Of a stretch of DNA of 39,807 nucleotides, positions 11,119-30,849 are shown piece after piece; position 1 is the first letter of the stretch, and every line of letters starts with the position of its first letter. The notes beneath the pieces were generated by a model. The model ran no database searches and was not told the DNA's origin. It saw only the letters and a program-made list of their open reading frames with translations. The translations under genes and the position numbers were made by a program. The stretch is from positions 1 to 39,807 of the forward strand of contig CAMYOI010000003.1 in the NCBI GenBank assembly GCA_947259955.1, written 5' to 3'. Origin of the DNA: an uncultured Gammaproteobacteria bacterium. Lineage in GTDB: Bacteria; Pseudomonadota; Gammaproteobacteria; Arenicellales; JAANXG01.

Positions 11119-12165
11119 TTACTCGGTGGTACGCGTCTGAGGCGTGGATCTCTGCGCCCGCCGATAGCGCTGGGGACTCATCCCGGTCCAGTTGCGGAAT
11201 GCGCGAGAAAACGCCGACAACTCGGAGTATCCGAGAAGCAGCGCAACCTCGGTCAGCGGCATGTCCGAGTCCTTGATGTAGTGCAGCGACAGCTCCTGTC
11301 TGGCGGCGCGGACCAGGTCTTGAAACGACAGCCCGTGTGCGTTCAGTTCGTTTTGAAACCGGCATTCGGAAATGCCAAACAGACGGGCGATCTGTGACAG
11401 GCTGGGCGGGGTAGTGCTGAGGTTCAATTTGATCTGATTGCGAACGATGGAAGCGAAGGTCTCAGGGTTGTCGTGAAGCTCGCAGCGAGACCTCAGAAAC
11501 GGTTCGATGATGGAAAAAAGGTATGGGTCCTGGTCGGGCATTCGAGCGTCCAGATCGCTGCGCCTGAAAGCCATGGCATTGGTGCGCCGGCCGAACAGCA
11601 CGGGTGCGCCGAAAACGTTCTCGTGTTCCGAATCGAATTGCGGCGCAGGGTGCTCGAAACGGATCTCGAGTGGTGACCAGTCCTTGCCAAGAGCGCTGCG
11701 GAACACATTCAAAAACATCCCCATCGACAGCTCGGCATCCTGTCTGCGGTCGCTGATGCGCGGATCATAGATCCTGTAGCTGAGCCAGAGAATGTCGCCG
11801 TCCTGGATGAGACTGAAGCTAGACTGTTCCTGGTGCGCCGGAAAATAAGTCTCCATGTTGCGCAGCGCGGCGGACAGCGTCGGGGAGCTGATTGCGGCGT
11901 AGCCGATGGCACCCAGCTTTTTGGGTTCGAACTGTGCGCCGAAGTGAAGACCGAAATTGTCATTGCCGGTTTGCCGGGCAGCCTCGGTGAACAGCTGGCA
12001 GAACTGTTGCAGGCTGATCTCCCGTATTGGACTGCCGAGATCCTCGACACTGAGCGCGGTAGAGCCGAAGATCGAATCGACATCACCATGATTTAGCTCG
12101 ATCATATCGGCCACACCCGTTGCGGCTGACGCAAGTACTTTCGACGGCTCTGCAATAGTGTTCAT
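11119..12165 (-). CDS. AraC family transcriptional regulator (probable regulator of the BMC locus)
   Basis: About 348 residues from the ATG at 12165; an in-frame TTG at 12198 with GGAG nearby is an alternative start (359 residues). The C-terminus has the two helix-turn-helix units of AraC/XylS regulators: PPSLSQIARLFGISECRFQNELNAHGLSF and MPLTEVALLLGYSELSAFSRAFRNWTGMSPQRYR. The long N-terminal domain (FGLHFGAQFEPKKLGAIGYAAISSPTLSAALRNMETYFPAHQEQSSFSL) is of the arabinose-binding-like type found in OruR/ArgR-like members. It is divergent from the ABC importer and microcompartment genes. Paired TGTCAA half-sites 20-21 bases apart lie upstream of the importer and again upstream of the aminotransferase, as expected of an AraC activator. 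The inducer is probably the imported amino compound (inference). Confidence 0.88.
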   Translation of the reverse strand: MNTIAEPSKVLASAATGVADMIELNHGDVDSIFGSTALSVEDLGSPIREISLQQFCQLFTEAARQTGNDNFGLHFGAQFEPKKLGAIGYAAISSPTLSAALRNMETYFPAHQEQSSFSLIQDGDILWLSYRIYDPRISDRRQDAELSMGMFLNVFRSALGKDWSPLEIRFEHPAPQFDSEHENVFGAPVLFGRRTNAMAFRRSDLDARMPDQDPYLFSIIEPFLRSRCELHDNPETFASIVRNQIKLNLSTTPPSLSQIARLFGISECRFQNELNAHGLSFQDLVRAARQELSLHYIKDSDMPLTEVALLLGYSELSAFSRAFRNWTGMSPQRYRRAQRSTPQTRTTE

Positions 12166-12318
12166 ATCGCCGCTGCTTGGCAGTTGCTTTCGATTCAACC
12201 TGCTCCGAGCGGCATAGCGCCGCCCACGTCACAGGCTTGAAGCGGTCAGAATGTCTTAATATTCACCCGAAATCAACCGGCGCGGCGGCGATAACCCGGG
12301 ACTTGGACGGGCAAATGC

Positions 12319-12432: not shown

Positions 12433-13566
12433 ATGAAGCTTACCCGGAGACAATTCAATAAGACCGCAGCCGCCACCGTTGGCGTGGCCGCAATGAGCCC
12501 GCTTCACCGGGCCCTGGCAGATCGCAATGATCAGATGAACATACTGTGTTGGGAAGGGTACAACTCGGACGAAGTGCTGGGTCCTTTCCGCGATGCGAAC
12601 TCCGGTGCCACGGTGCGGGCGGAGAGTGGAACGTCTGATCCGGACATGATCAACAAGCTCCGTGCAGGTGAAGTCAACGTATGGGACCTGATCAATGTGA
12701 ACCAGCCCTGGGCAAGTGCACAGCTGTATCCCGAAAAATTGATTAAGCCGCTCAACAAGGACCGGTTCATGCCTTATTTCGAAAGGATGCTGCCGGAATT
12801 TTCGGGTCCATATCCCCTGGCCTTCGCCGACGATGGTGAACTCATCGGCATGCCGCAGCGGTATGGTCCGTTCAGCTTCGTGGTCAATACGGACAAGATA
12901 AGCCGGGGCATGGCGGAAGATCAGGGTTGGAAACTGTTTCTGGATCCCGGCCTGAACCAGCGTTACGGTATCCTCACTTATGACAACTGGAACATCATGC
13001 ACATGTGCCTGACCGGCGACCAGAATCCTTTCGACCCGATGGACGACGCCGGACTGGAGACATTCAAGGGCACGGCGGAAGCCGTTTTTGCGGGCGCCAA
13101 GCTGCTGACGGACGACCTGGTGGCCATGAACACCGCGCTGATCAACGGGGAAATCGACGCTTATTTCACTGGGGGCACCTATACCGCTTCTCCCGCCCGC
13201 CTGGATGGCGCGACCAATATCCGGGGAATTACGCCGAATTCCGGTCCGGTCGACGGCAAGGGCGGCGTAGTCTGGATCGAACTCACATCGGCCGTAAACA
13301 ATCCCGACCCGTCGATACTGGCGGAGGATTTCCTCGAATTCGTGCAGGACCCCGAAATCTGCAAGGCGGTGAGCTTTGCGGAGGGTACTTACAACCCCGT
13401 GAGCCAGATGGGCGATTCGAAGGTGTTTGCCCAGTACGACGAAGATGAACTCGATGCAATACAGTGGGACAGCCTCGGCGAAGAGATGGCGCGATCGCTG
13501 GATTATCAGGTCGTTGCCTCCTACGACAAGCTGAACGAGATCTACAACGCTGCCAAGCGGGGTTGA
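12433..13566 (+). CDS. ABC transporter substrate-binding protein, polyamine/PotD class, Tat signal
   Basis: The product has 377 residues. It begins with a twin-arginine signal, MKLTRRQFNKTAAATVGVAAM, with likely cleavage after HRALA, so it should be exported folded to the periplasm. NILCWEGYNSDEVLGPF near the mature start, ESGTSDPDMINKLRAGEVNVWDLI, and PQRYGPFSFVVNTDKIS are typical of spermidine/putrescine-type binding proteins (PotD/PotF fold). The strong AGGAGG precedes the ATG. It is the first gene of a run with an ATPase, two permeases, an SDR and a kinase, leading into a microcompartment, so it probably captures the amino alcohol, polyamine or related amine used by that pathway. The ligand cannot be read from sequence. 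Confidence 0.88.
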   Translation: MKLTRRQFNKTAAATVGVAAMSPLHRALADRNDQMNILCWEGYNSDEVLGPFRDANSGATVRAESGTSDPDMINKLRAGEVNVWDLINVNQPWASAQLYPEKLIKPLNKDRFMPYFERMLPEFSGPYPLAFADDGELIGMPQRYGPFSFVVNTDKISRGMAEDQGWKLFLDPGLNQRYGILTYDNWNIMHMCLTGDQNPFDPMDDAGLETFKGTAEAVFAGAKLLTDDLVAMNTALINGEIDAYFTGGTYTASPARLDGATNIRGITPNSGPVDGKGGVVWIELTSAVNNPDPSILAEDFLEFVQDPEICKAVSFAEGTYNPVSQMGDSKVFAQYDEDELDAIQWDSLGEEMARSLDYQVVASYDKLNEIYNAAKRG

Positions 13567-13645: not shown

Positions 13646-14731
13646 ATGCCGCCGGAACCGATCCTTCGCCTTGAAAATATCGTCAAGCGCTTCGGCGCCT
13701 TTACGGCGCTACACCATATTGATCTGGAAATCGATGAAGGCGAGTTTCTGACCATAGTCGGGCCGTCCGGTTGCGGTAAAACCACCCTGATCCGGCTGCT
13801 GGTTGGAATCGATGAACCGACAGAAGGCCGCATCTGGTTGCGCGACAAGCGCATAGAAAAAGTGCCTGCAAATCTGCGACCGACCTGCATGGTGTTTCAG
13901 TCGTTGGCGCTGTTTCCGCACCGTTCCGTGGGAGAAAACATAGAATTTCCATTGAAGATTCGCGGTGAGACTGCGTCTCGGCGCAAGGAACGGGCGCTAG
14001 AGCTGCTCGACCTGCTTCATTTGCCCCACGATTTCTATGACAAAAGGATCAACCAGTGCTCGGGCGGAGAGCGCCAGCGGATTGCGCTGGCACGGGCGTT
14101 GGCGTTCGATCCGGAAATCCTGTTCTTCGACGAACCGCTTTCAGCACTGGATTTCCGCTTGCGCAAAAAACTGGAAAAGGAACTCAAGGATCTTCACGAG
14201 CGCACGGGCAAAACCTTCGTGTACATTACCCACAGCCTGGAAGAGGCGATGGTCATGTCAGACCGAATCGCCATCATGAGACAGGGGCGCTTCGAGCAGA
14301 TCGCCGTGACGGACGAGATTTATGCGCGTCCGATCACCCGGTTCGTGGCCGAGTTCATGGGAGAGGTGAATCTGTTCGACGTGGAGGGAACGGCTTCGGG
14401 CGGCCTGCGCGGGCATGGTGTGGAAATACACATCGACGCCGCGGGTGAAACTGTGGATCTTACTTTAGCGCAGGGGACGCAGGGCGCCCTGATGGTGCGT
14501 CCGGAGTCGGTGCGATTTCTCGACCCGGGCCAAACCGCGGATTTTGTCGTGCGAGGGATCCTGCGCGCGTACTACGCGCTTGGTTCCCGCACGCAGTACA
14601 AGGTCGAATCCTCCGAGGGAATCGAACTCGCGGTGGAAAAGCTCAGGCAGGACCGGTTTATGGGAAACGTGGGGGACGAGGTCGTGCTGGGTTTCGATAT
14701 GCAGAACACGCATATGATCAGGGAGCGCTAG
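13646..14731 (+). CDS. ABC transporter ATP-binding protein, PotA class
   Basis: The product has 361 residues. The ATPase domain shows Walker A GPSGCGKTT (residues 39-47), Q-loop VFQSLALF, signature CSGGERQRIALARAL, Walker B ILFFDEPLSALD and the switch histidine in YITHSLEEAMVMSD. The C-terminal third (VARFMGEVNLFDVEG onward, RPESVRFLDPGQ) is the TOBE-type regulatory domain of the polyamine/PotA class. The signature begins CSGGE rather than LSGGQ, a tolerated variant. It follows the binding-protein gene by 79 bases and is followed after four bases by the first permease. It supplies energy to import the substrate of the microcompartment pathway. Confidence 0.92.
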   Translation: MPPEPILRLENIVKRFGAFTALHHIDLEIDEGEFLTIVGPSGCGKTTLIRLLVGIDEPTEGRIWLRDKRIEKVPANLRPTCMVFQSLALFPHRSVGENIEFPLKIRGETASRRKERALELLDLLHLPHDFYDKRINQCSGGERQRIALARALAFDPEILFFDEPLSALDFRLRKKLEKELKDLHERTGKTFVYITHSLEEAMVMSDRIAIMRQGRFEQIAVTDEIYARPITRFVAEFMGEVNLFDVEGTASGGLRGHGVEIHIDAAGETVDLTLAQGTQGALMVRPESVRFLDPGQTADFVVRGILRAYYALGSRTQYKVESSEGIELAVEKLRQDRFMGNVGDEVVLGFDMQNTHMIRER

Positions 14732-14735
14732 CGGT

Positions 14736-15590
14736 TTGGAACGATCAGACCGCAAAATCGGCTTTCTGAGCGCCGTTCCGATCACCGTGATCCTGATGCT
14801 CAGCTTCACGGCGCCCCTGCTGGTGGTGCTGCTGTTTTCCGTGATGCCTCAGAAGGTGTTTACCCTTGCTCATGTGCCGGACTTTTCGTCCTACGGCGTG
14901 CTCTTCAGCCAGGGCTACTACCGGTCCCTGCTCTGGTCCCTTGGCACGGCGCTGGCGGCAACGGTCCTGTTGTTTCTGATTTGCTGGCCGCTGGCTTTTG
15001 CCATGGCCAAGGTGTTCAAGGGATTCACTCTGTTCATTACCGTCGCCGTGGTAATCACCCTTTTCGTGTCCGAGAATATCAGGTTGTTCGGTTGGGTTCT
15101 TACCCTGATGAAGGGGGGGCTGATCGAAGGGTATCTCCGGGCGTGGGTGGGTTGGAGTTTCGAAGGCGCGCTCTACAACGTTCCCGTGATCATCTTCGGA
15201 CTGGTTTACGTCTATTTTCCCTTCATGCTGTTTCCTCTGGTCCAGGGGATTTCAATGGTCCCGGATGACGCGCGCCAGGCGGCGGCGGACCTGGGCGCAA
15301 CGAGGCGGCAGATATTCTGGGAAGTCGATCTGCCGCTGTCGGCGCCGGGTATCGTCATCGGATCGCTGCTGACATTCGTGTTGGGTGCGGGGGCACTGGC
15401 CGAATCCAAGCTGCTCGGCGGTCAGGCGGTTATCGTCATCGCCGATGAGATCGAAACGGCTTTCACCTACGGTCAGAACTGGCCTTTGGGATCGGCGTTA
15501 TCGATCATACTTATCTTTATTATCGGGTCTTTGGCGGTGTTCGGGGTCAGCCGGGTGGATCTGGACAAGATTATGGGCAGGCGGCGCTGA
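14736..15590 (+). CDS. ABC transporter permease, PotB class
   Basis: The product has 284 residues from a TTG start four bases after the ATPase stop. It has about six membrane segments, including VPITVILMLSFTAPLLVVLLFSVM and ALAATVLLFLICWPLAFAMA. The EAA loop is visible as DDARQAAADLGATRRQIFWEVDLPLSAPGIVIG. This is one half of the inner-membrane channel of a polyamine-class importer. The TTG start without a clear ribosome site suggests translational coupling to the ATPase gene. The stop overlaps the ATG of the next permease in TGATG. Confidence 0.9.
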   Translation: MERSDRKIGFLSAVPITVILMLSFTAPLLVVLLFSVMPQKVFTLAHVPDFSSYGVLFSQGYYRSLLWSLGTALAATVLLFLICWPLAFAMAKVFKGFTLFITVAVVITLFVSENIRLFGWVLTLMKGGLIEGYLRAWVGWSFEGALYNVPVIIFGLVYVYFPFMLFPLVQGISMVPDDARQAAADLGATRRQIFWEVDLPLSAPGIVIGSLLTFVLGAGALAESKLLGGQAVIVIADEIETAFTYGQNWPLGSALSIILIFIIGSLAVFGVSRVDLDKIMGRRR

Positions 15591-16402
15591 TGCGGATCGG
15601 CCGAGCGACACGGATTGCACTCTATCTCTATGGCATTCTTGTCATAGCGTTTCTGTATCTTCCTCTCCTGTCAGTGGGGTTTGCTTCGGTGTCCAAGGCG
15701 CGGTACCTGACATTTCCCATAAAACGCTACGCTTTTCAGTGGTACGGCAAGGCGCTGGAGAGCCACACCGTCCAGGATCTGCTGTGGACGTCGTTGAGCA
15801 TTGCCGGCATCGTGACCGTGATCAGCATGATCGTCGGTTTTTTCGGTGCTTTGGCGTTTGCCAGGTATCAGTGGCGTTTTCGCGGCGTGTTCCAGAAGCT
15901 CATCCTGTTGCCCATTTTTTTTCCCCAGGCCGTCCTTGGGCTGGCCTTGTTGATGTGGTTCAACTCGATTGGCATCATTCCGGACTGGAAGACGGCGGTG
16001 GTGGCTCATCTCGTCTGGATATCGCCGATTGCGACGCTGGTCATCGCAATTCGTGCGTACAGTTTTGATCCCGCGCTTGAAGAGGCCGCCCGCGACATGG
16101 GAGCCTCGACCTGGGTGGTATTGAAGGAGGTAACCGGACCGTTGCTGATGCCGGGTGTGGTTTCGGCGGGATTGTTTTCATTCCTGTTGAGCTGGGGAAA
16201 CTTCCCTTTGTCATTGTTCACAACCGGGGCCGATTCAACATTGCCGGAATGGCTTTATGCCAAGATGGTGTCGGGTTATTCCCCGCTGGTGCCCACCGTG
16301 GGCATACTTTCCATCGCGACGTCGATGATACTTCTGATCGTCGCGTTTACTATTTACTGGTTCGTCCGCTCGGCGCGCGAAAGGCGTGCGCGGACCATTT
16401 GA
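15590..16402 (+). CDS. ABC transporter permease, PotC class
   Basis: The product has 270 residues with about six membrane segments. The EAA loop reads EEAARDMGASTWVVLKEVTGPLLMPGVVSAG. The N-terminal SKARYLTFPIKRYAFQWYGKAL is typical of PotC-like permeases. Its ATG shares a base with the stop of the preceding permease (TGATG), so the two are translated together and form the heterodimeric channel. The next gene, an SDR, starts 23 bases after its stop, which ties the importer to the catabolic genes. Confidence 0.9.
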   Translation: MRIGRATRIALYLYGILVIAFLYLPLLSVGFASVSKARYLTFPIKRYAFQWYGKALESHTVQDLLWTSLSIAGIVTVISMIVGFFGALAFARYQWRFRGVFQKLILLPIFFPQAVLGLALLMWFNSIGIIPDWKTAVVAHLVWISPIATLVIAIRAYSFDPALEEAARDMGASTWVVLKEVTGPLLMPGVVSAGLFSFLLSWGNFPLSLFTTGADSTLPEWLYAKMVSGYSPLVPTVGILSIATSMILLIVAFTIYWFVRSARERRARTI

Positions 16403-16424: not shown

Positions 16425-17204
16425 ATGTTGACATCCATCAAGGATCGTTCGGTCATCGTTACCGGCGGTTCCAAAGGTATAGGTAAGGGCATCGCCCAGG
16501 TGTTTGCCGCGCAGGGGGCGAAGGTCATGATCGCCGCGCGGGGCGAAGTGGCCGGCGCCGCCGCCGCCGCCGAATTACGGGCGGCCGGTGGAACGGCGGA
16601 TTTCTGCCGGTGCGACGTCTCCGACTGGGACTCGGTGCAGCACCTTGTGGACAGGACGGTTGACGCTTTCGGCGGACTCAACGTCATGTGTGCGAACGCC
16701 GGGGCCTTTCCCCAGACCAAAATGATCGATATGGATCCCGAGGAGTGGGACGAGGTCATGGCCACTAATCTCAAGAGCGCTTTTCTGTGCGTCAAGGCCT
16801 GTATCCCGCAGTTCGAGAAAGCGGGCGGAGGCCGAGTAGTCTTGACGTCTTCCATTACCGGTCCGGTTACGGGTTATCCCGGTTGGTCGCACTACGGTGC
16901 ATCGAAATCCGGACAGCTGGGTTTTTTGAAAACCGCGTGCATGGAACTGTCCAAATACAACGTAACCATCAACGCGGTGATGCCGGGCAACATCTACACC
17001 GAGGGGCTGAAGGATCTGGGCCAGGATTATCTGGACAGCATGGCGGCCTCAATTCCGCTCAAGCGGCTCGGCGACGTCAAGGATATTGGCAACGCCGCAC
17101 TGTTCTTCGCCTCTGACGAAGCGGGGTACATCACCGGCCAGACCATTGTTGTCGATGGCGGCCAGATCATACCCGAGTCACTGGAAGCCATCGAGGAAAT
17201 CTGA
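16425..17204 (+). CDS. SDR family oxidoreductase (probable amino-alcohol dehydrogenase)
   Basis: The ORF track starts at 16386, but the ATG at 16425 has GGAGGT upstream and gives 259 residues, a classical SDR length. It shows TGGSKGIG (13-20), NAG (91-93), S143 in SSITG, and Y157/K161 in YGASK. The C-terminal ITGQTIVVDGGQIIPES is the usual SDR end. In characterised RMM microcompartment loci an SDR interconverts aminoacetone and 1-amino-2-propanol with NAD(P). The position here between the importer and the APH-type kinase fits the same job. The exact substrate and cofactor choice are inferred. No encapsulation-like tail is evident. Confidence 0.85.
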   Translation: MLTSIKDRSVIVTGGSKGIGKGIAQVFAAQGAKVMIAARGEVAGAAAAAELRAAGGTADFCRCDVSDWDSVQHLVDRTVDAFGGLNVMCANAGAFPQTKMIDMDPEEWDEVMATNLKSAFLCVKACIPQFEKAGGGRVVLTSSITGPVTGYPGWSHYGASKSGQLGFLKTACMELSKYNVTINAVMPGNIYTEGLKDLGQDYLDSMAASIPLKRLGDVKDIGNAALFFASDEAGYITGQTIVVDGGQIIPESLEAIEEI

Positions 17205-17236: not shown

Positions 17237-18244
17237 ATGCCAGACAGTGCCACGCCCTACGATGTCTTGATAGAGCGCCTGGGCGTTCTCGCCAATCAGT
17301 CCCTCGGGCTATGGGACTTGCCGGAGGGCGCAACGGCGCGCCTGATCAACGTATCGGAAAATGCCACCTACCTCGTCGAGGCTCCGAACGGGTTCAAATC
17401 GATTCTTCGAGTGCACCGTGAGGACTATCACACACGCAACGCAATCAGTTGCGAGCACGCCTGGTCCAAAGCGCTCGACGAAGAGGGCGGGGTCCACACT
17501 CCGGATATTCTTCCGGGCCGTGACGGCAGCGGCATCCAGACCGCTTCAGTGGATGGTTTAGCCGGCGAACGCCATATGGCCATGTTCGAGTTCCTCGAAG
17601 GCGAACATCCCGAAGAGGACGCGGACCACCTGGTGGAGTCGTTCGAGGAATTGGGCGAGATAGCGGCACGGACGCACAATCATTCCGTGGCATGGATGCG
17701 CCCGGCCAATTTCGAACGGCTCGTTTGGGACCTTGACACCGTATTCGGTCCGCGGGCGTACTGGGGTGACTGGCGAGATGCGCCCGGGGTAACGGAGCAG
17801 ACAAAAACGCTGCTCGAGCGGCTTCAATCCATCGTCGTACGGCGCTTGACCGAATTTGGCAAAGGGGCTGAGCGATTCGGCCTGATCCACGCCGACATGC
17901 GGCTGGCCAACCTGATCATCAGTGACGGAACAACCAGGCTCATCGACTTCGATGATTGCGGGCTGGGTTGGTTCATGTATGACTTCGCTGCCGGGATCAG
18001 CTTCATGGAAGACCATCCACAGATACCCAATCTCAAGGGCGCGTGGGTCCGCGGTTACAGAAAAGTTCGCGGGCTGAGCGCCGCAGACGAAGATGAGATC
18101 GATACCTTCGTCATGCTGCGCCGCCTGGCCCTGCTGGCCTGGATAGGCTCCCATATCGAGGTCGATACGGCAAAGGAGCTTGCGCCCGCATTCGCACCCG
18201 TAACGGCGGCGTTGGCGGAAATCTATCTTTCACATCAGGAATGA
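17237..18244 (+). CDS. APH-fold phosphotransferase (probable amino-alcohol kinase)
   Basis: The product has 335 residues. It has the aminoglycoside/choline-kinase fold: a catalytic loop GLIHADMRLANLII (HxDxxxxN), the metal-binding aspartate in LIDFDDCGLGWFMYD, and LGEIAARTHNHSV upstream. This family includes choline, ethanolamine and homoserine kinases. In RMM loci an APH protein phosphorylates 1-amino-2-propanol so that the neighbouring class III enzyme can eliminate phosphate and ammonia. It starts 32 bases after the SDR gene, so they should be co-transcribed. Antibiotic resistance is a poor alternative given the setting. The substrate (1-amino-2-propanol or ethanolamine) is an inference. 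Confidence 0.85.
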   Translation: MPDSATPYDVLIERLGVLANQSLGLWDLPEGATARLINVSENATYLVEAPNGFKSILRVHREDYHTRNAISCEHAWSKALDEEGGVHTPDILPGRDGSGIQTASVDGLAGERHMAMFEFLEGEHPEEDADHLVESFEELGEIAARTHNHSVAWMRPANFERLVWDLDTVFGPRAYWGDWRDAPGVTEQTKTLLERLQSIVVRRLTEFGKGAERFGLIHADMRLANLIISDGTTRLIDFDDCGLGWFMYDFAAGISFMEDHPQIPNLKGAWVRGYRKVRGLSAADEDEIDTFVMLRRLALLAWIGSHIEVDTAKELAPAFAPVTAALAEIYLSHQE

Positions 18245-18301: not shown

Positions 18302-18486
18302 TTTTAGAGCCGCGCCTGTGCCACGCTAGATCTCGGAATGCATCGAGGCGGCGCCGTTCGCGGTCACGTCACTTCATCCTTTGTCAAGCCGTGACCATGC
18401 AGCGGCACCTGCCGCAAAGTGCCTTTGACGTTGTCAGGCCGCATCGATGCCGCCGCGTACTGGGTAATGAACCGGGAGGCAACACC

Positions 18487-19758
18487 ATGAGCGAAGCAAA
18501 ACTCGAATTCCTCGATCGATCGAGGGCATTCTGGAATCCCGGAAAGACACAGGATTGGCAGGACATGGGCGTCGATCTCGTGATTGACCGGCGGGAGGGA
18601 TACTACCTGTTCGATATGGATGGACGGCGCCTTATCGACCTGCATTTGAACGGAGGCACGTACAATCTGGGCCACCGGAATCCTGAACTGGTGGAGGCGC
18701 TGAAGGCCGGCAGTGCCCGCTTCGATATGGGTAATCACCATTTCCCCGCACTTGCCCGCACCGCGCTGGCCGAAGCGCTCGCGGCCTGCGCACCGGCACC
18801 GAATATGGTGTATACCGCGTACGGCTCGGGTGGTGGTGAAGCCATCGATATTGCCATCAAGACCGCTCGCCACGCCAAGCAAAGACGCAAGATCGTGTCC
18901 ATCGTCAAGGCCTACCACGGGCACACGGGTCTGGCGCTAAAAACCGGCGACGACCGGTTTTCCAAACTGTTTCTCTCAGAGGATACGCTGGGTGAGTTCG
19001 TGCAGGTCCCGTTCAACGACCTCAATGCCATGGAAGATGCCCTGCGCGGGCGGGATGTCGCAGCCGTAATCATGGAAACCATCCCCGCAACCTACGGTTT
19101 TCCGATGCCGCAGGAGGGTTATCTGCCCAATGTGAAGATGCTCTGCGAAAAGTACGATGCCCTGTACATTGCCGACGAGGTTCAGACCGGCCTGATGCGA
19201 TGCGGTGAGCTCTGGGCATGCACGAAATACGGCATCGAGCCGGACATCATGGTGACGGGCAAGGGCATCGGCGGCGGCATGTATCCGATCGCCTGCACCT
19301 GTATCGGTGAGCATTGCGGCGGCTGGCTGACGGAAGATGGATTCGGCCACATCTCCACCGGCGGCGGCGCCGAACTCGGTTGCATCGTGGCGATGAAAGT
19401 CCTCGAGATCGTGCAGCGCCCGGAAGTTAGGACCATGGTTCGATACGTTTCCGACTACATGCGCGCGGGGCTGGACCGGATCATGACCGAGTACCCCGAC
19501 TTCTTCATCGGGATCCGTCAGCACGGCGTAGTGATGGGCCTCGAGTTCAATCACGAGCAGGGAGCAAAACCGGTGATGAAACACCTTTACGACAACGGCG
19601 TCTGGGCTATTTTTTCGACCCTCGATCCACGCGTGCTGCAGTTCAAGCCCGGTCTGCTCATGACCCAGGCCGATTGTGAGGAAGTATTGCGGCGGGTCGA
19701 AATCGGCATCGGTCTCGCCCGGGATGAAGTCATGGGCTCCCACAGGAGGAGCGCCTGA
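18487..19758 (+). CDS. Class III aminotransferase-fold PLP enzyme (probable amino-alcohol phosphate phospho-lyase)
   Basis: The ORF track starts at 18391, but the ATG at 18487 has GGGAGG upstream and gives 423 residues, the usual size. PLP-site features are YTAYGSGGGEAIDIAIKTAR, YIADEVQTGLMRCGE and the Schiff-base lysine K259 in TGKGIGGGMYPIACT. This family includes true aminotransferases and also phospho-lyases for ethanolamine phosphate. In RMM microcompartments the homologous enzyme is thought to turn phosphorylated 1-amino-2-propanol into propionaldehyde, ammonia and phosphate. The adjacent kinase and aldehyde dehydrogenase support the lyase reading. Its stop overlaps the aldehyde dehydrogenase start (TGATG). 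It could be encapsulated, but no clear targeting helix is visible. Confidence 0.85.
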   Translation: MSEAKLEFLDRSRAFWNPGKTQDWQDMGVDLVIDRREGYYLFDMDGRRLIDLHLNGGTYNLGHRNPELVEALKAGSARFDMGNHHFPALARTALAEALAACAPAPNMVYTAYGSGGGEAIDIAIKTARHAKQRRKIVSIVKAYHGHTGLALKTGDDRFSKLFLSEDTLGEFVQVPFNDLNAMEDALRGRDVAAVIMETIPATYGFPMPQEGYLPNVKMLCEKYDALYIADEVQTGLMRCGELWACTKYGIEPDIMVTGKGIGGGMYPIACTCIGEHCGGWLTEDGFGHISTGGGAELGCIVAMKVLEIVQRPEVRTMVRYVSDYMRAGLDRIMTEYPDFFIGIRQHGVVMGLEFNHEQGAKPVMKHLYDNGVWAIFSTLDPRVLQFKPGLLMTQADCEEVLRRVEIGIGLARDEVMGSHRRSA

Positions 19759-21329
19759 TGGAACCCCAAGCGAGGACCCTGGTCGACATATCGGGCAGCC
19801 ACGCCGCGCTGGCGGGACACGCCGACATGGTGCTGGAAAGGGCGCGCTGGGCGGCGGAAGTTTTCCAGCGTTATGATCGTGAGTTGACCATGGCGATAGC
19901 CGATGCCGTTGCCGCGGCGGCACACGAGAACGCCGAAAGATTCGCCGACTGGGCGGTGCGGGAAACGGGATTCGGCGTTGCCGCACACAAGAAACTGAAG
20001 AACGAGTTGACGTCCCGGCCGCTGGTGGATTTTTATCGAAACGACGATTACGTCAATCCGCGCATCGACGAGGCGCGAAAGATCGTCGAGATCCCCCGGC
20101 CCGCCGGCGTGATCCTGGCGCTTACTCCTTCGACCAACCCCATAGCCACGCTCAACTACAAGGTCTTGATCTCGCTGATGACGCGCAACGCGATCGTTAT
20201 CAGCCCGCATCCGGCGGCGCGCGAATGCAGCGTCGATGCGGCCCACGCACTCGGCGAGGCCGCGACGGATGCGGGCGCCCCCGACGGCGCCGTCCAGATC
20301 ATAGAGAATCCCGGCATTCCTCTAGTCGAAGAACTCATGGTGTCGCCCAAGACCTCGGTGATCCTCGCCACCGGCGGCACGGCGATGGTGCGTTCCGCCT
20401 ACTCCTCGTCGAATCCGGCAATTGGCGTCGGACCCGGCAACGCACCGGTGTTCGTTGATTCGACCGCGGACGTCGACAAGGCGGCAAAGCGTATCGTGGA
20501 GTCGAAATCTTTCGACAACTCGGCGTTGTGTACGAACGAGAGCGTCCTGATTACCCTGGAAGATGTCGATGCGCGCTTGCGCCGTTCGTTCAAGCAGGCA
20601 AAGGCTTACATTTGCGACGCCGACGACGTCGACCGCTTGCGACGGTATCTGTTTCACGATCGTGGATTCAATATCGAATGCATTGGTCGGGATGCCGCGT
20701 GGATTGCACAGGAATGCGGTATCCGTGTACCCGACGGCACGCTGGTTCTGCTGGCGCCGATTTCGCAGATTGGCGTTGAGGAGCCGCTTTCGAGGGAGAA
20801 ACTGTGTCCGGTGCTTGCCTATCATGTGGTCAAGCGCCGCAACCAGGCGATCACGCAGGCTCGCGCGGTGCTGCGCCTTGCCGGCGCCGGCCACTCTGCC
20901 GCCGTGCACGCCATGGACGAGCAGGTGGCGATGGCATTTGCGTCCGCGGTGGAGGCTTATCGGGTCGTCGTGAATGCCCCCTGTACCCAGGGCGCCGCCG
21001 GTTTTCAGACCGCGCTGGCGCCTACTTTCACCGTGGGCACCGGATTTTACGGCCGCAGTTCAATTGGCGAGAATATCGGGCCAGGACACCTCGTGCACTG
21101 GACTCGCCTGGCCTATAACTCGGATGCGTCTGAATCTTTCGGCAACTACCGCGGCTTGAGCCCGGGTTTCAGCGGCCCGCTGCCCGAAGCGCCCTCCGAC
21201 GGTGTGCCGGGATCCAACGGATACCGGGCGAGACGCGCCGAAGCCGATGCCAGTGTTTTTTCCGGCGTAACGCGTGAGGAGTTGCGGCGCATGATTGCCG
21301 AAGAACTTCGCGCGGTGCTGAGGAAGTAG
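19758..21329 (+). CDS. BMC CoA-acylating aldehyde dehydrogenase with C-terminal encapsulation-like helix
   Basis: The product has 523 residues. The catalytic cysteine is C258 in DNSALCTNESVLI, the pattern of acylating dehydrogenases such as PduP and EutE. VILALTPSTNPIATLNYK and GVGPGNAPVFVD are the cofactor-binding blocks. It would oxidise propionaldehyde or acetaldehyde to the acyl-CoA. The catalytic part ends near SFGNYRGLSPGF. A linker rich in proline, serine and glycine follows, then the terminal amphipathic helix TREELRRMIAEELRAVLRK, which looks like a BMC encapsulation peptide. A similar helix opens the 149-residue protein two genes downstream. It starts inside the stop of the lyase gene and is followed by shell genes, so it is the signature enzyme of the compartment. 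Confidence 0.92.
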   Translation: MEPQARTLVDISGSHAALAGHADMVLERARWAAEVFQRYDRELTMAIADAVAAAAHENAERFADWAVRETGFGVAAHKKLKNELTSRPLVDFYRNDDYVNPRIDEARKIVEIPRPAGVILALTPSTNPIATLNYKVLISLMTRNAIVISPHPAARECSVDAAHALGEAATDAGAPDGAVQIIENPGIPLVEELMVSPKTSVILATGGTAMVRSAYSSSNPAIGVGPGNAPVFVDSTADVDKAAKRIVESKSFDNSALCTNESVLITLEDVDARLRRSFKQAKAYICDADDVDRLRRYLFHDRGFNIECIGRDAAWIAQECGIRVPDGTLVLLAPISQIGVEEPLSREKLCPVLAYHVVKRRNQAITQARAVLRLAGAGHSAAVHAMDEQVAMAFASAVEAYRVVVNAPCTQGAAGFQTALAPTFTVGTGFYGRSSIGENIGPGHLVHWTRLAYNSDASESFGNYRGLSPGFSGPLPEAPSDGVPGSNGYRARRAEADASVFSGVTREELRRMIAEELRAVLRK

Positions 21330-21338
21330 GCGGACAGC

Positions 21339-21950
21339 ATGGCGGAACTCCGTTCGTTCATTTTTATAGATCAGTTGCAGCCGCAGACGCTGGCTTATAT
21401 CGCGACCTGGATGCGGGGTTCATTGCCGCGTCGAAACATGGCCGCACAAATTATCGAGGTATCGCCCGGACTGGATATCGAGGCGCTGACCGATGTTGCA
21501 CTCAAGGGCGCCAACATCAAAGTCGGACTGCTCGTAGTCGAGCGCCAGTATGGGTACCTGGAGTTCCACTCCCGATCTACCGCCGAGGTCAAGGCCGGCG
21601 CGCAGGCCCTGCTGGATGCGCTGGGCGCGAGCGTCGAGGATGCCACGCCACCACAGATCCTCGGGTCCAAGGTCGTCACTCGCGTCGACCACCAGCATGC
21701 CTTTCTGATCAATCGCAACAAGCTTGGTTCCATGGTGCTTGGCAACGAGTCACTGTACCTGCTGGAGTGTCGTCCCGCGTCGTACGCCATCTTGGCCTGC
21801 AACGAGGCGGAGAAAGAAGCCAACATCAAAGTCATCGACTACCGAATGATCGGCGCCAACGGGCGGCTCTATCTCTCCGGTGACGAGGCTGAGATCCGAA
21901 ATGCGCGAGGCGTGGCCGAGGCTGTACTTCACAAAGGCGGGGTGGCCTAG
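21339..21950 (+). CDS. Tandem BMC-domain shell protein (BMC-T), first copy
   Basis: The product has 203 residues in two similar halves (about 1-95 and 100-203), each of BMC-domain size. Half one has AAQIIEVSPGLDIEALTDVALKGANIKVGLLVVERQYGYLEFHS; half two has SLYLLECRPASYAILACNEAEKEANIKVIDYRMIGANGRLYLSGDEAEI. Such proteins form trimers that look like hexamers and tile the microcompartment facets, often with a gated pore. It is a clear paralogue of the BMC-T encoded at 23.0 kb. The well-studied mycobacterial RMM shell also has two BMC-T proteins. It starts nine bases after the aldehyde dehydrogenase stop. Confidence 0.85.
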   Translation: MAELRSFIFIDQLQPQTLAYIATWMRGSLPRRNMAAQIIEVSPGLDIEALTDVALKGANIKVGLLVVERQYGYLEFHSRSTAEVKAGAQALLDALGASVEDATPPQILGSKVVTRVDHQHAFLINRNKLGSMVLGNESLYLLECRPASYAILACNEAEKEANIKVIDYRMIGANGRLYLSGDEAEIRNARGVAEAVLHKGGVA

Positions 21951-21953
21951 CAA

Positions 21954-22403
21954 ATGGTCGACGAACTGCGCCAGGCGATCCGAAGCATTCTGCTCGAGGA
22001 GCTTGCGGTACATGGAGTCGGGCTGCCCCCGAAGTCGGCGCCGGGGATTCACGTCGAGGAAGTCGAGATCAATTCCGATGGAGACCTTGCACAATTCGTC
22101 CGACGCTTGCTGCAGCTCGCCCGCGACGGCGGCGCACTCTCGGCGATTGAATCGGGGCGCCACGTATTCAGGTTGCGCACAGTCAGTGCTCCGCAGCGGT
22201 CGATGCAACCGCCGGCGGAATCCAGTCGAACGCCGGCTGGCGGCACGATGACATTCGACGCGGGCCTCATCACTGAAAAACAGGTTCGCAATCTTCCTGA
22301 AAATATCTCAGTGGTAAAGGTGGGCGGCAGCGTGCGGCTCACGCCGCTGGCCAGCGATGCCATGCGGCGCGCGGGGATTAAAATAGAAAAGGTGACATCA
22401 TGA
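21954..22403 (+). CDS. BMC-locus protein of unknown function with encapsulation-like N-terminal helix
   Basis: The product has 149 residues. It starts MVDELRQAIRSILLEELAVHG, an amphipathic helix like the C-terminal tail of the aldehyde dehydrogenase (REELRRMIAEELRAVL), so it may be a cargo or shell-core adaptor. The middle (residues 70-95) is a low-complexity proline/serine linker. The end reads DAGLITEKQVRNLPENISVVKVGGSVRLTPLASDAMRRAGIKIEKV; a short block with TPLA-D---R--GI is, from memory, also seen in other microcompartment-associated proteins. It lies between BMC-T and BMC-P with a three-base gap and an ATGA overlap. I do not recognise a catalytic domain. It could organise the cargo like CcmM or PduM, but that is inference. 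Confidence 0.7.
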   Translation: MVDELRQAIRSILLEELAVHGVGLPPKSAPGIHVEEVEINSDGDLAQFVRRLLQLARDGGALSAIESGRHVFRLRTVSAPQRSMQPPAESSRTPAGGTMTFDAGLITEKQVRNLPENISVVKVGGSVRLTPLASDAMRRAGIKIEKVTS

Positions 22404-22642
22404 TTCGTGGACGCATAACGGGCCGAATCTGGTCCAGCAAACACATCGAAACCCTGCCCAACGGGGCGCTTCTTGAAGTGACTCTCGATACCGGCGGCAG
22501 TCTGATCGCGCTGGATCCGCTCGGATGCGCCGAAGGTGAAGCCGTTCTCGTGACTCAGGGCTCGGTTGCCGCGGGCTACTTTACCAAGTCCAAAGCACCG
22601 ATAGATGCGCTGATTATCGGGTCTATCGATGAACAGGGCTGA
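22400..22642 (+). CDS. EutN/CcmL family pentameric vertex protein (BMC-P)
   Basis: The product has 80 residues. MIRGRITGRIWSSKHIETLPNGALLEVTLD, a central AEGEAVLVTQGSVA and the C-terminal APIDALIIGSIDEQG form the EutN/CcmL OB-fold pattern. These proteins form pentamers that close the vertices of the shell. The ATG overlaps the previous stop as ATGA, so translation is coupled. It is the only BMC-P in the window, as in a minimal shell. Length is slightly short of the common 85-95 residues, but the core is complete. Confidence 0.9.
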   Translation: MIRGRITGRIWSSKHIETLPNGALLEVTLDTGGSLIALDPLGCAEGEAVLVTQGSVAAGYFTKSKAPIDALIIGSIDEQG

Positions 22643-22699: not shown

Positions 22700-22984
22700 A
22701 TGTCGAATCAGGCTATCGGAATGATCGAGACCCGCGGCTACGTTCCGGCGCTGGCCAGCGCCGACGCGATGGTCAAAGCAGCCAATGTCGAAATCGTATC
22801 ACGCAATGAAGTCGGAGGCGGACTGGTATCCGTAGTGATCAAGGGCGACGTCGGAGCCGTCAAGGCGGCGACGGAAGCCGGCTCCGAGGCAGCCAATCAG
22901 GTTGGCGAAGTGGTCGCAGTACACGTTATTCCCAGGCCCCACCAGGACCTGAACCAGCATTTCAGTCTGGCGGCCGGCAAGTGA
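22700..22984 (+). CDS. Hexameric shell protein (BMC-H)
   Basis: The product has 94 residues and one BMC domain: MSNQAIGMIETRGYVPALASADAMVKAANVEIVSRNEVGGGLVSVVIKGDVGAVKAATEAGSEAANQVGEVVAVHVIPRPH. This matches the PduA/EutM/CsoS1 family closely. Six copies form the main facet tile with a central pore; the KGDVGAV turn precedes the usual helix. A clear TTAGGAGA site precedes the ATG. It is the only BMC-H in the window, so it should be the most abundant shell part. The strong ribosome site fits this. Confidence 0.95.
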   Translation: MSNQAIGMIETRGYVPALASADAMVKAANVEIVSRNEVGGGLVSVVIKGDVGAVKAATEAGSEAANQVGEVVAVHVIPRPHQDLNQHFSLAAGK

Positions 22985-23017: not shown

Positions 23018-23647
23018 ATGACCGAGTTGAGGGTCTATCTGCCAATCCACGATCTGCAACCCCAGTTCTCCGCTTATCTGAGCACGCCGATGCGGGCCCG
23101 GGGATATCCGCCTTTCGAAGGACAGCACAGTCTGATCATCGAGGTGTCTCCAGCACTCGCCATACACCGAATATCAGACCTCGCCCTGAAGGCGGCGCCC
23201 GATATGGAACCGGGCATTCTGTTCACTGAAAGACAGTACGGATTGCTGGAACTGCATTCTTCGGATCGGGATGAGCTGGATGCGGCGGGCAAGGCGATCC
23301 TCAAGGGTATAGGCGCAAGTCCGGGAGACCAGCTCGCTCCCGCCATCCTGTTCGAAGACATCATCGAGAATTTGTCGGACCAGCACGCAATCATTTTGAA
23401 CCGCTCCCGCTCTGCCTCCATGCTGGTCCCGGGCTCGTCGCTGCTTCTTTACGAAATGAGCCCCGCGCTGTTCGCCTGTGTCGCTGCCAACGAGGCGGAA
23501 CGCGCTGCGCCCGCGGCGATCCTCAATGACGTTCAGATGATGGGGGTGTCAGGCCGCATCTTCATGTCCGGCGACACCGGTGACCTGACCAGGGCGCGGG
23601 ATGCCATAATGCGGACGCTGAAAGCGGTTAAGGGACGCAAACAATGA
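23018..23647 (+). CDS. Tandem BMC-domain shell protein (BMC-T), second copy
   Basis: The product has 209 residues and is a paralogue of the BMC-T at 21.3 kb: DLQPQFSAYLSTPMRARGYPP, HSLIIEVSPALAIHRISDLALKAAPDMEPGILFTERQYGLLELHS, and LLYEMSPALFACVAANEAERAAPAAILNDVQMMGVSGRIFMSGDTGDL correspond block by block. Two BMC-T together with one BMC-H and one BMC-P give the same shell inventory known for the mycobacterial RMM compartment. Whether the two BMC-T form separate trimers, stacks or mixed ones cannot be told. Its stop overlaps the start of the cysteine hydrolase (ATGA). Confidence 0.85.
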   Translation: MTELRVYLPIHDLQPQFSAYLSTPMRARGYPPFEGQHSLIIEVSPALAIHRISDLALKAAPDMEPGILFTERQYGLLELHSSDRDELDAAGKAILKGIGASPGDQLAPAILFEDIIENLSDQHAIILNRSRSASMLVPGSSLLLYEMSPALFACVAANEAERAAPAAILNDVQMMGVSGRIFMSGDTGDLTRARDAIMRTLKAVKGRKQ

Positions 23648-24318
23648 GCAACTGGAAAAACGCTTACAGGTCATTTTATTACGCGAACGCCGACGAGCCG
23701 GAAGACCCGGTACTGGCGCCGCGCGCGACCGCGCTGCTGGTGATCGATATTCAGAATACCTACATGGAGGTGCCCGATGATGCCGCCGAGGCGGCACGAT
23801 GGGCCCCGTTTTTTTCCAGGATGAATGACACGGTCATTCCCAATACGGCTGCGTTGATCGAATTATGCAGAGCAAGGAAAATCGAGGTCATCTTCGCGCG
23901 CATCGCTTGCCTTACGGAAGACGGCCGGGATCGGTCCCTGAGCCAGAAGAAACCCGGCTTCAATTACCTGTTGCTGCCCAAGGACCGGGAGGACAGCCAG
24001 CTTGTGCCCCAATTACAGCCCAGAGGCGACGAGATAGTCATTCTGAAGACCACGGACAGCGCTTTGACTGGTTCGAACCTGCGGTTGATCCTGAACAACA
24101 TGGGCATTCGAAACATCGTCTTGGCTGGTATTTTTACGGATCAATGCGTCAGCAGCACAGTGCGTAGTCTCGCTGACGAAAGCTTCAACGTGCTGGTGGT
24201 CGACGACTGCTGCGCCGCGGCCACGATGGAACTGCACGACCACGAACTGGAAATCATAAATATGATCTACTGTCACGTGGTTCAGTCCGAGGATATCCGG
24301 TCTTTCATCCGTAATTGA
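23644..24318 (+). CDS. Isochorismatase-like cysteine hydrolase in the BMC operon
   Basis: The product has 224 residues. The catalytic triad of the cysteine hydrolase family is visible: D35 in LLVIDIQNTY, K135 in VILKTTDSALTGSNL, and C168 in GIFTDQCVSSTVRSLADESF. Relatives include nicotinamidase, N-carbamoylsarcosine amidohydrolase and ureidoacrylate hydrolase, so an amide or carbamoyl C-N bond is the likely target. The start overlaps the BMC-T stop (ATGA), so it is made with the shell. That placement suggests a role in feeding or clearing an intermediate of the pathway. There is no clear targeting helix, although the N-terminus MSNWKNAYRSFYYANADEPEDP is longer than needed. The substrate is unknown. 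Confidence 0.88.
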   Translation: MSNWKNAYRSFYYANADEPEDPVLAPRATALLVIDIQNTYMEVPDDAAEAARWAPFFSRMNDTVIPNTAALIELCRARKIEVIFARIACLTEDGRDRSLSQKKPGFNYLLLPKDREDSQLVPQLQPRGDEIVILKTTDSALTGSNLRLILNNMGIRNIVLAGIFTDQCVSSTVRSLADESFNVLVVDDCCAAATMELHDHELEIINMIYCHVVQSEDIRSFIRN

Positions 24319-30129: not shown

Positions 30130-30849
30130 TTATTGCCGGTGCACCCGAAAAAATTCTGCAGCCCAGTCCGCAATCAGTTTGCTGTCGGCCGGCTGCGCCA
30201 GGGATCTGCGTGCGGCCTCGGTGCGATCCACGGGAAATATGACGCCGCCACGCAGATCGAGCAAATCGATCATGTACTCCTCGCTGAACTCGGGGTGAAA
30301 CTGAACGGTCAGCACGGTGTCGTCGTAACGCACGGCACCAATCGGGCAAAACTCGTTGCCACCGATGATTTCCGCGGTGTCCGGCACGGCAATCACCTGG
30401 TCCTGGTGCATGACCATGACGGGGACCTGTCTGCTGGTGTCGTTGGTGCCGAGTCGCATGTGGTAGGTGTGCACCCCTATCCCCCATCCCTGATCTGATT
30501 TCAACGCTTTTCCTCCCAAAGCCTCGGCGGCGATCTGGTGGCCGAAACAGATGCCGAACTGGGGCTTGCCGGCAGCGGTGGCGCGACGAATGAAATCCTC
30601 GAGAGGCTCGATCCAGTGCAGCTCATCGTATACACCATGCCGCGATCCCGAGTAGATGTAGCCGTCGAATGCTTGGACGGGGGGCAACACCTCGCCCGTG
30701 ACGGGCGATACGCCGGTGAATACGGCCTCCGGCATGGAAGGCGACAGCCACTGCGCAATCATTTTGGGGTAGTAGGGATATTTTTCATTGAGCTCCTCGG
30801 GTATTTCACCAAGTTCGAAGACCGCGATGTTCATTGGCTGGTTGTTCAT
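30130..30849 (-). CDS. Class I glutamine amidotransferase-like protein
   Basis: The product has 239 residues. The triad is visible: C101 in FGICFGHQIAAEALGG, H185 and E187 in VQFHPEFSEEYM. Stand-alone proteins of this type hydrolyse glutamine or gamma-glutamyl compounds; some act in gamma-glutamyl-polyamine breakdown or as GMP-synthase-like domains. It follows on the minus strand after a TrpB2-like gene and an adenylation-domain relic, and may share their transcript. FDGYIYSGSRHGVYDELHWIEPLEDFIRRA is the typical oxyanion-strand region of GMP-synthase-like amidotransferases. The partner or substrate is unknown. A second in-frame ATG at 30834 is an alternative start. Confidence 0.85.
   Translation of the reverse strand: MNNQPMNIAVFELGEIPEELNEKYPYYPKMIAQWLSPSMPEAVFTGVSPVTGEVLPPVQAFDGYIYSGSRHGVYDELHWIEPLEDFIRRATAAGKPQFGICFGHQIAAEALGGKALKSDQGWGIGVHTYHMRLGTNDTSRQVPVMVMHQDQVIAVPDTAEIIGGNEFCPIGAVRYDDTVLTVQFHPEFSEEYMIDLLDLRGGVIFPVDRTEAARRSLAQPADSKLIADWAAEFFRVHRQ

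Follow-up and report, generated by a model that had tools for sequence, protein, structure and literature searches.

The cysteine hydrolase encoded at the end of a microcompartment operon in the window (the whole stretch of 39,807 nucleotides analysed here, from an uncultured Gammaproteobacteria bacterium) appears, on a modest balance of probability, to be an accessory amidohydrolase of an amine uptake and catabolism module that lies outside the compartment core. The enzyme resembles biuret, ureido and maleamate hydrolases, and it is probably cytosolic and accessory, acting in the branch that supplies the amine. It would be an accessory step feeding or servicing the pathway, and is no proof of new compartment chemistry. 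The operon and its divergent regulator are arranged as follows.

11119-12198, minus strand: AraC-type regulator, divergent from the operon (AraC-type C-terminal HTH; the family also occurs in six related loci)
12433-13566, plus strand: periplasmic substrate-binding protein, PotD-like (SBP_bac_8; Pfam 1.3e-12)
13646-14731, plus strand: ABC transporter ATPase (open reading frame, synteny)
14736-15590, plus strand: ABC transporter permease 1 (open reading frame, synteny)
15590-16402, plus strand: ABC transporter permease 2 (open reading frame, synteny)
16425-17204, plus strand (reading frame opens at 16386): SDR, probable 1-amino-2-propanol / aminoacetone oxidoreductase (6ci8/6ci9, E 9e-90)
17237-18244, plus strand: APH-fold kinase, probable amino-alcohol kinase (best solved match 6ef6, E 2e-83; next 1.5e-12)
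18487-19758, plus strand (reading frame opens at 18391; start from homologs): class-III PLP enzyme (Pfam Aminotran_3)
19758-21329, plus strand: CoA-acylating-type aldehyde dehydrogenase with a C-terminal targeting-like helix, REELRRMIAEELRAVLRK
21339-21950, plus strand: BMC-T shell protein 1, CcmP-like (Pfam BMC; NCBIfam CcmP model 1e-60)
21954-22403, plus strand: uncharacterised 149-aa protein with an N-terminal amphipathic helix (position conserved in RMM-type loci)
22400-22642, plus strand: BMC-P vertex protein (Pfam EutN_CcmL 9e-18)
22700-22984, plus strand: BMC-H shell protein (Pfam BMC 4e-27)
23018-23647, plus strand: BMC-T shell protein 2 (best solved match Mycobacterium MSM0271, 1.9e-81)
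23644-24318, plus strand: isochorismatase-family cysteine hydrolase (PF00857 1e-34; D35-K135-C168; ATGA overlap with BMC-T)

All three kinds of RMM/AAUM shell gene, BMC-H, BMC-T and BMC-P, were found in the locus. We assign it to a proteobacterial RMM/AAUM-type compartment, since the SDR, the kinase and the BMC-T protein find their best matches among solved Mycobacterium RMM proteins; 6ci8/6ci9 are taken here to be the M. smegmatis RMM 1-amino-2-propanol dehydrogenase, and 6ef6 is presumably the 1-amino-2-propanol kinase of Mallette and Kimber. These matches, together with that to MSM0271, bear out the RMM-type amino-alcohol operon proposed in the initial annotation. The operon probably serves the breakdown of small amino alcohols, and for RMM/AAUM compartments themselves the physiological substrate is still inferred. 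In common with RMM/AAUM, the locus encodes an SDR, a kinase, an acylating-type aldehyde dehydrogenase (NCBIfam AdhE/EutE-type models at 3e-125 and 2e-114; 46% identity to the R. jostii RMM enzyme), two BMC-T proteins, BMC-H, BMC-P and a small p149-like protein, and from the aldehyde dehydrogenase through the second BMC-T the gene order is that of R. jostii RMM. By contrast, RMM/AAUM has a permease and a GntR regulator where the window locus has a PotD-type ABC transporter and an AraC regulator. The window locus also differs in being proteobacterial, in having a class-III PLP enzyme of another clade, and in the isochorismatase-family hydrolase, which is optional. The 149-aa protein has no match in Pfam or NCBIfam; it occupies the place between BMC-T and BMC-P in the majority of RMM-type loci, R. 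jostii has a counterpart there too, and its N-terminal amphipathic helix resembles a targeting peptide. On R. jostii RHA1 pRHL2 (L055, 15448-20937), the block of BMC-T, hypothetical, BMC-P and BMC-H genes is doubled, flanking an aminotransferase gene, with identical protein accessions.

The class-III PLP enzyme, judged by its closest homologs, is the one real core deviation from RMM, and it went unmentioned in the initial annotation. Its nearest solved proteins are putrescine aminotransferases, not phospho-lyases, and it shares only 24-25% identity with its R. jostii and Agrobacterium counterparts. These two enzymes, 46% identical to each other, belong to the phospho-lyase clade of 5g4i, ethanolamine-phosphate phospho-lyase, which the Agrobacterium enzyme matches at 1e-105; the window enzyme does not fall into this ETNPPL/5g4i clade found in R. 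jostii RMM. The swap of this PLP signature enzyme may say more about the chemistry of the compartment than the hydrolase does. Most proteobacterial RMM-type loci pair the kinase with a PLP enzyme of the putrescine-aminotransferase clade (L046, L059, L146, L151, L154 and others). The PLP enzymes of compartment loci are 65-98% identical to that of the window, with a second, alphaproteobacterial type at about 46-49% as a partial match, and a phospho-lyase-clade enzyme is found instead in the R. jostii RMM locus and in shell-less operons.

The hydrolase reading frame starts with ATG at 23644 and encodes 224 aa. Its initial description as a cysteine hydrolase with an intact D35-K135-C168 triad proved correct: the Pfam isochorismatase domain PF00857 is found with E=1e-34 and 120 bits against a cut-off of 27, the fold matches amidohydrolases, and the three residues, unchanged in 94/94 orthologs, align to the proven catalytic triad of BiuH, Asp36-Lys142-Cys175 (PMC5806882). 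The overlap of its start with the stop of the BMC-T gene is also as annotated, the TGA of the BMC-T reading frame (23018-23647) occupying 23645-23647 within the ATGA. In 27 of the 34 compartment-locus orthologs, the start forms an NTGA overlap with the preceding gene (at least 100 codons long and mostly BMC-T), and the overlap is not a product of chance. Since the like is seen in LIV-transporter clusters, where 14 of 18 orthologs overlap with a permease gene, the overlap marks operon membership and no special link to the shell.

By sequence, the nearest solved relatives of the hydrolase are triuret hydrolase, biuret hydrolase, maleamate amidohydrolase and RutB. The best structural matches of its AlphaFold2 model (pLDDT 83.5, pTM 0.85) are the same biuret, triuret, RutB and maleamate amidohydrolases, with Foldseek values of E about 1e-13 and TM about 0.7 against BiuH/TrtA. 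The hydrolase has its fold and Asp-Lys-Cys triad in common with BiuH and TrtA, the nearest solved structures, but is only 22-27% identical to them; it shares fold and family with the RutB ureidoacrylate amidohydrolase. Against the curated models it scored 71.9 bits for BiuH (NCBIfam NF050097, cut-off 370) and 71.2 bits for RutB (TIGR03614, cut-off 378). Isochorismate lyase, nicotinamidase, BiuH and RutB were all rejected as identities, the scores being far under the curated cut-offs and the key residues different. Lys145 of BiuH is an essential residue that forms a hydrogen bond to the substrate (PMC5806882). Biuret and triuret hydrolases both carry Lys at this position, whereas our hydrolase has Asp138, and Gln215 of BiuH is not conserved. 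Asp138 is present in 94/94 orthologs, while paralogs of 38% identity have Ser. With Asp138 where biuret hydrolase has its substrate-binding Lys, the substrate of the window hydrolase is perhaps cationic; lid residues 95-109 of the model are of low confidence, so that arguments from the pocket are weak. An acid at 138 suggests a fit to an ammonium-bearing substrate, which would match the PotD-type transporter and the amine enzymes, and N-carbamoyl or N-acyl amino alcohols and omega-amino amides are candidate substrates.

In the proposed amine module, the hydrolase would be a cytosolic accessory to the PotD-type ABC transporter, the SDR, the kinase and the class-III PLP enzyme. Cysteine chemistry at Cys168 with Asp35 as the base follows from the isochorismatase-like family. 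We infer that Cys168, with support from Lys135, would attack a linear amide or ureido (N-carbamoyl) bond, and that the thioester or thiocarbamate formed on Cys168 would then be resolved by water. This would release the amino compound, or ammonia and an acid, which would enter the pathway or supply nitrogen. The reaction may also be generic nitrogen salvage off this pathway, since copies of the hydrolase sit in SDR/kinase-free, TRAP and DMSP-demethylase-like clusters. It is conceivable, though unlikely, that the natural substrate of one branch of proteobacterial RMM-type compartments is a novel cationic amide or N-carbamoyl amino alcohol, imported by the PotD-type system and opened by the hydrolase, and not free aminoacetone or 1-amino-2-propanol.

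The occurrence of the hydrolase in compartment loci was surveyed starting from the RMM-type aldehyde dehydrogenase (at least 48% identity and E <1e-110, with 1e-100 as the limit for the first search of the class) in the class, order and phylum of the window and in one alphaproteobacterial family and class. Among the 35 genomes with this enzyme, the hydrolase lay within or next to the locus (on the same contig, no more than about 11 kb away) in 19, elsewhere in 8 and nowhere in 8. The eight "elsewhere" include G858, whose compartment contig is too short to tell and whose hydrolase comes first in a run of transporter, SDR and kinase genes that closes a different contig. In a species of the window's own genus (G001), the compartment locus has no hydrolase, and a 73% copy lies elsewhere. 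Hence the hydrolase accompanies RMM-type shells across many proteobacteria, but not always. In the order of the window, hydrolase and compartment coincide strongly (15/16 versus 1/84, Fisher 1e-15, uncorrected for kinship and with the truncated compartment locus of G094 scored as present). In the alphaproteobacterial family there is no association, the hydrolase occurring in 7/12 genomes with the RMM aldehyde dehydrogenase and in 2/5 without it (p=0.62). Loci free of the hydrolase (for example L151) show that the aldehyde dehydrogenase, the SDR and the kinase can do without it, and because the gene is optional, a strong claim of a link to the shell also fails. A BMC operon can thus gain or lose a supply enzyme while shell and core stay constant.

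The copies found in compartment loci are not a distinct kind of enzyme. The hydrolase is no unrelated housekeeping gene. In a tree of the 94 orthologs, compartment and other copies interleave, with mixed classes and 11 changes of compartment label (a count that is only indicative in a quick tree with many weak forks). The combination that would have told against the initial annotation, absence from similar loci and clustering with unrelated housekeeping hydrolases, was not what the survey returned. The active-site residues are invariant across the 94 orthologs, compartment or not, and at no position of their alignment does the majority residue of the compartment copies differ from that of the LIV or other copies. 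The compartment copies have no specific N- or C-terminal extension, and a targeting peptide on the hydrolase was rejected for want of such an extra terminal segment. In related loci, the aldehyde dehydrogenases have at their C-terminus a conserved helix of the type seen in targeting peptides, R(D/E)EIRRxIxEEL. A hydrolase with no recognisable targeting tail may nevertheless be encapsulated.

These data bear on the proposal of the initial annotation that the hydrolase is an integral compartment step, and that this type of shell degrades an amide or carbamoyl precursor unlike the known RMM substrate. Its place as last gene of the shell operon, the conserved overlap with BMC-T, the 19/35 loci and the co-occurrence in the window's order speak for such a step. 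We nevertheless regard it as distinctly unlikely: shell-less orthologs have identical pocket residues, 16/35 RMM-type loci lack the gene, the association is absent in the alphaproteobacterial family, and the SDR and kinase of the core are clearly homologous to the dehydrogenase and the kinase characterised for 1-amino-2-propanol. An extra step tied to the shell is therefore not supported, and the hydrolase alone is no evidence that the compartment degrades a different compound. The simplest conclusion would be that one enzyme carries out one reaction in several amine and nitrogen operons, with co-expression of a shell in some.

The shell-less settings were obtained from an ortholog-alignment scan of genome contigs, in which the best 80 of 444 relatives were compared; these 80 loci were picked by closeness to the window, which biases their proportions towards compartment loci. 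Close orthologs (60-96% identity) are found both inside and outside compartment loci. Among these best 80, the hydrolase is the last gene, after BMC-T, in a first class of compartment loci, and follows the kinase or lies between kinase and PLP enzyme in a second, alphaproteobacterial class. In a shell-less class it accompanies the transporter, SDR, kinase and/or a phospho-lyase-type enzyme. In a rhizobial class it lies with a LIV-type transporter, a GS-like ligase, FGase, a 38%-identical second hydrolase and a class-III aminotransferase, without SDR or kinase. Further settings have TRAP, DMSP-demethylase-like or dimethylformamidase-like genes nearby. The shell-less operon ATU_RS25115-RS25080 on pAt of Agrobacterium fabrum C58 (L054) has the kinase (47% identical to that of the window), the SDR (56%), the PotD-type transporter (substrate-binding protein annotated PotD/PotF, 54%) and the orthologous hydrolase (60%) in common with the window, but no shell or aldehyde dehydrogenase gene, and the class-III enzyme encoded there belongs to the phospho-lyase clade. 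Salipiger (L105) and Actibacterium (L125) likewise combine transporter, SDR, kinase and hydrolase in an operon without shell genes, and in Amphritea (L104/L126) the hydrolase is found together with an SDR, a kinase and a phospho-lyase-type enzyme. The L167 locus encodes transporter, SDR and hydrolase; neither an aldehyde dehydrogenase nor a shell gene lies within 20 kb, and the genome has no RMM-type aldehyde dehydrogenase at 1e-110. The position of the hydrolase shifts (after BMC-T, kinase or SDR, or before the substrate-binding protein) with its partners unchanged. No substrate could be named from the common neighbours of the orthologs, their contexts being too diverse.

Such an accessory distribution, in several unrelated amine clusters and with extreme conservation of the pocket, would also be expected if the hydrolase had a clearing role, disposing of an amide or ureido compound to which the aldehyde, aminoacetone or carbamoyl phosphate gives rise as a by-product while the amine is broken down. 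This reading, which we consider rather improbable, predicts that the hydrolase tracks aldehyde-forming enzymes, whereas the copies in L105, L125 and L167 have no aldehyde dehydrogenase nearby and follow or precede the transporter and SDR; to our knowledge, no specific amide or ureido side product of amine breakdown has been described, which also counts against it. Cleavage of gamma-glutamyl or N-acyl amine conjugates, as a counterpart of gamma-glutamylation routes, is very unlikely: orthologs and 38%-identical paralogs often lie beside GS-like ligases, N-formylglutamate amidohydrolase-like genes or a class-I glutamine amidotransferase, but the window operon has no ligase, the closest enzymes of solved structure have small ureido or primary amides as their substrates, and we know of no isochorismatase-family enzyme that cleaves such conjugates.

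In one alphaproteobacterial family (L172, L174, L175 and L167), the hydrolase and the substrate-binding protein are separated by a class-I glutamine amidotransferase-like gene, which would represent a second amidase type in the supply module; the GATase of the window at 30130-30849 gave no BLAST match to it. A Klebsiella pneumoniae plasmid (L056, 3175-10663) carries a GS-like ligase, an RpiR regulator, FGase, a 35%-identical hydrolase, an APC permease, a class-III aminotransferase and an SDR, and this cluster looks like an uncharacterised amine pathway.

RMM1 loci are known to contain multiple hydrolases (Axen et al. 2014, PMC4207490), and the earlier statement that the classic RMM pathway needs no amidase was thus too strong. 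The isochorismatase near the R. jostii RMM locus was rejected as an ortholog of the window hydrolase, with only 21% identity over 91 residues. With hydrolases in RMM loci already noted (Axen et al. 2014), what we describe is a known compartment type with an accessory enzyme of a known family. Literature searches for the Agrobacterium operon (gene numbers guessed from map position) or for microcompartment cysteine hydrolases returned no match, and this ortholog group was not found in the RMM-locus papers compared. A conserved operon amidase with shell-less twins in culturable, genetically tractable species, A. fabrum C58 among them, offers a direct route to the amine or amide that is imported. 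Finally, several RMM-type loci are adjoined by oxidative genes, in L141 (6640-7803), L154 (13446-16303), L147 (1856-4255) and L163 (8087-10570), of the Rieske oxygenase, GMC oxidoreductase and FAD-GcvT dimethylglycine-dehydrogenase-like types, and these neighbours hint at N-methylated amino alcohols as upstream substrates.
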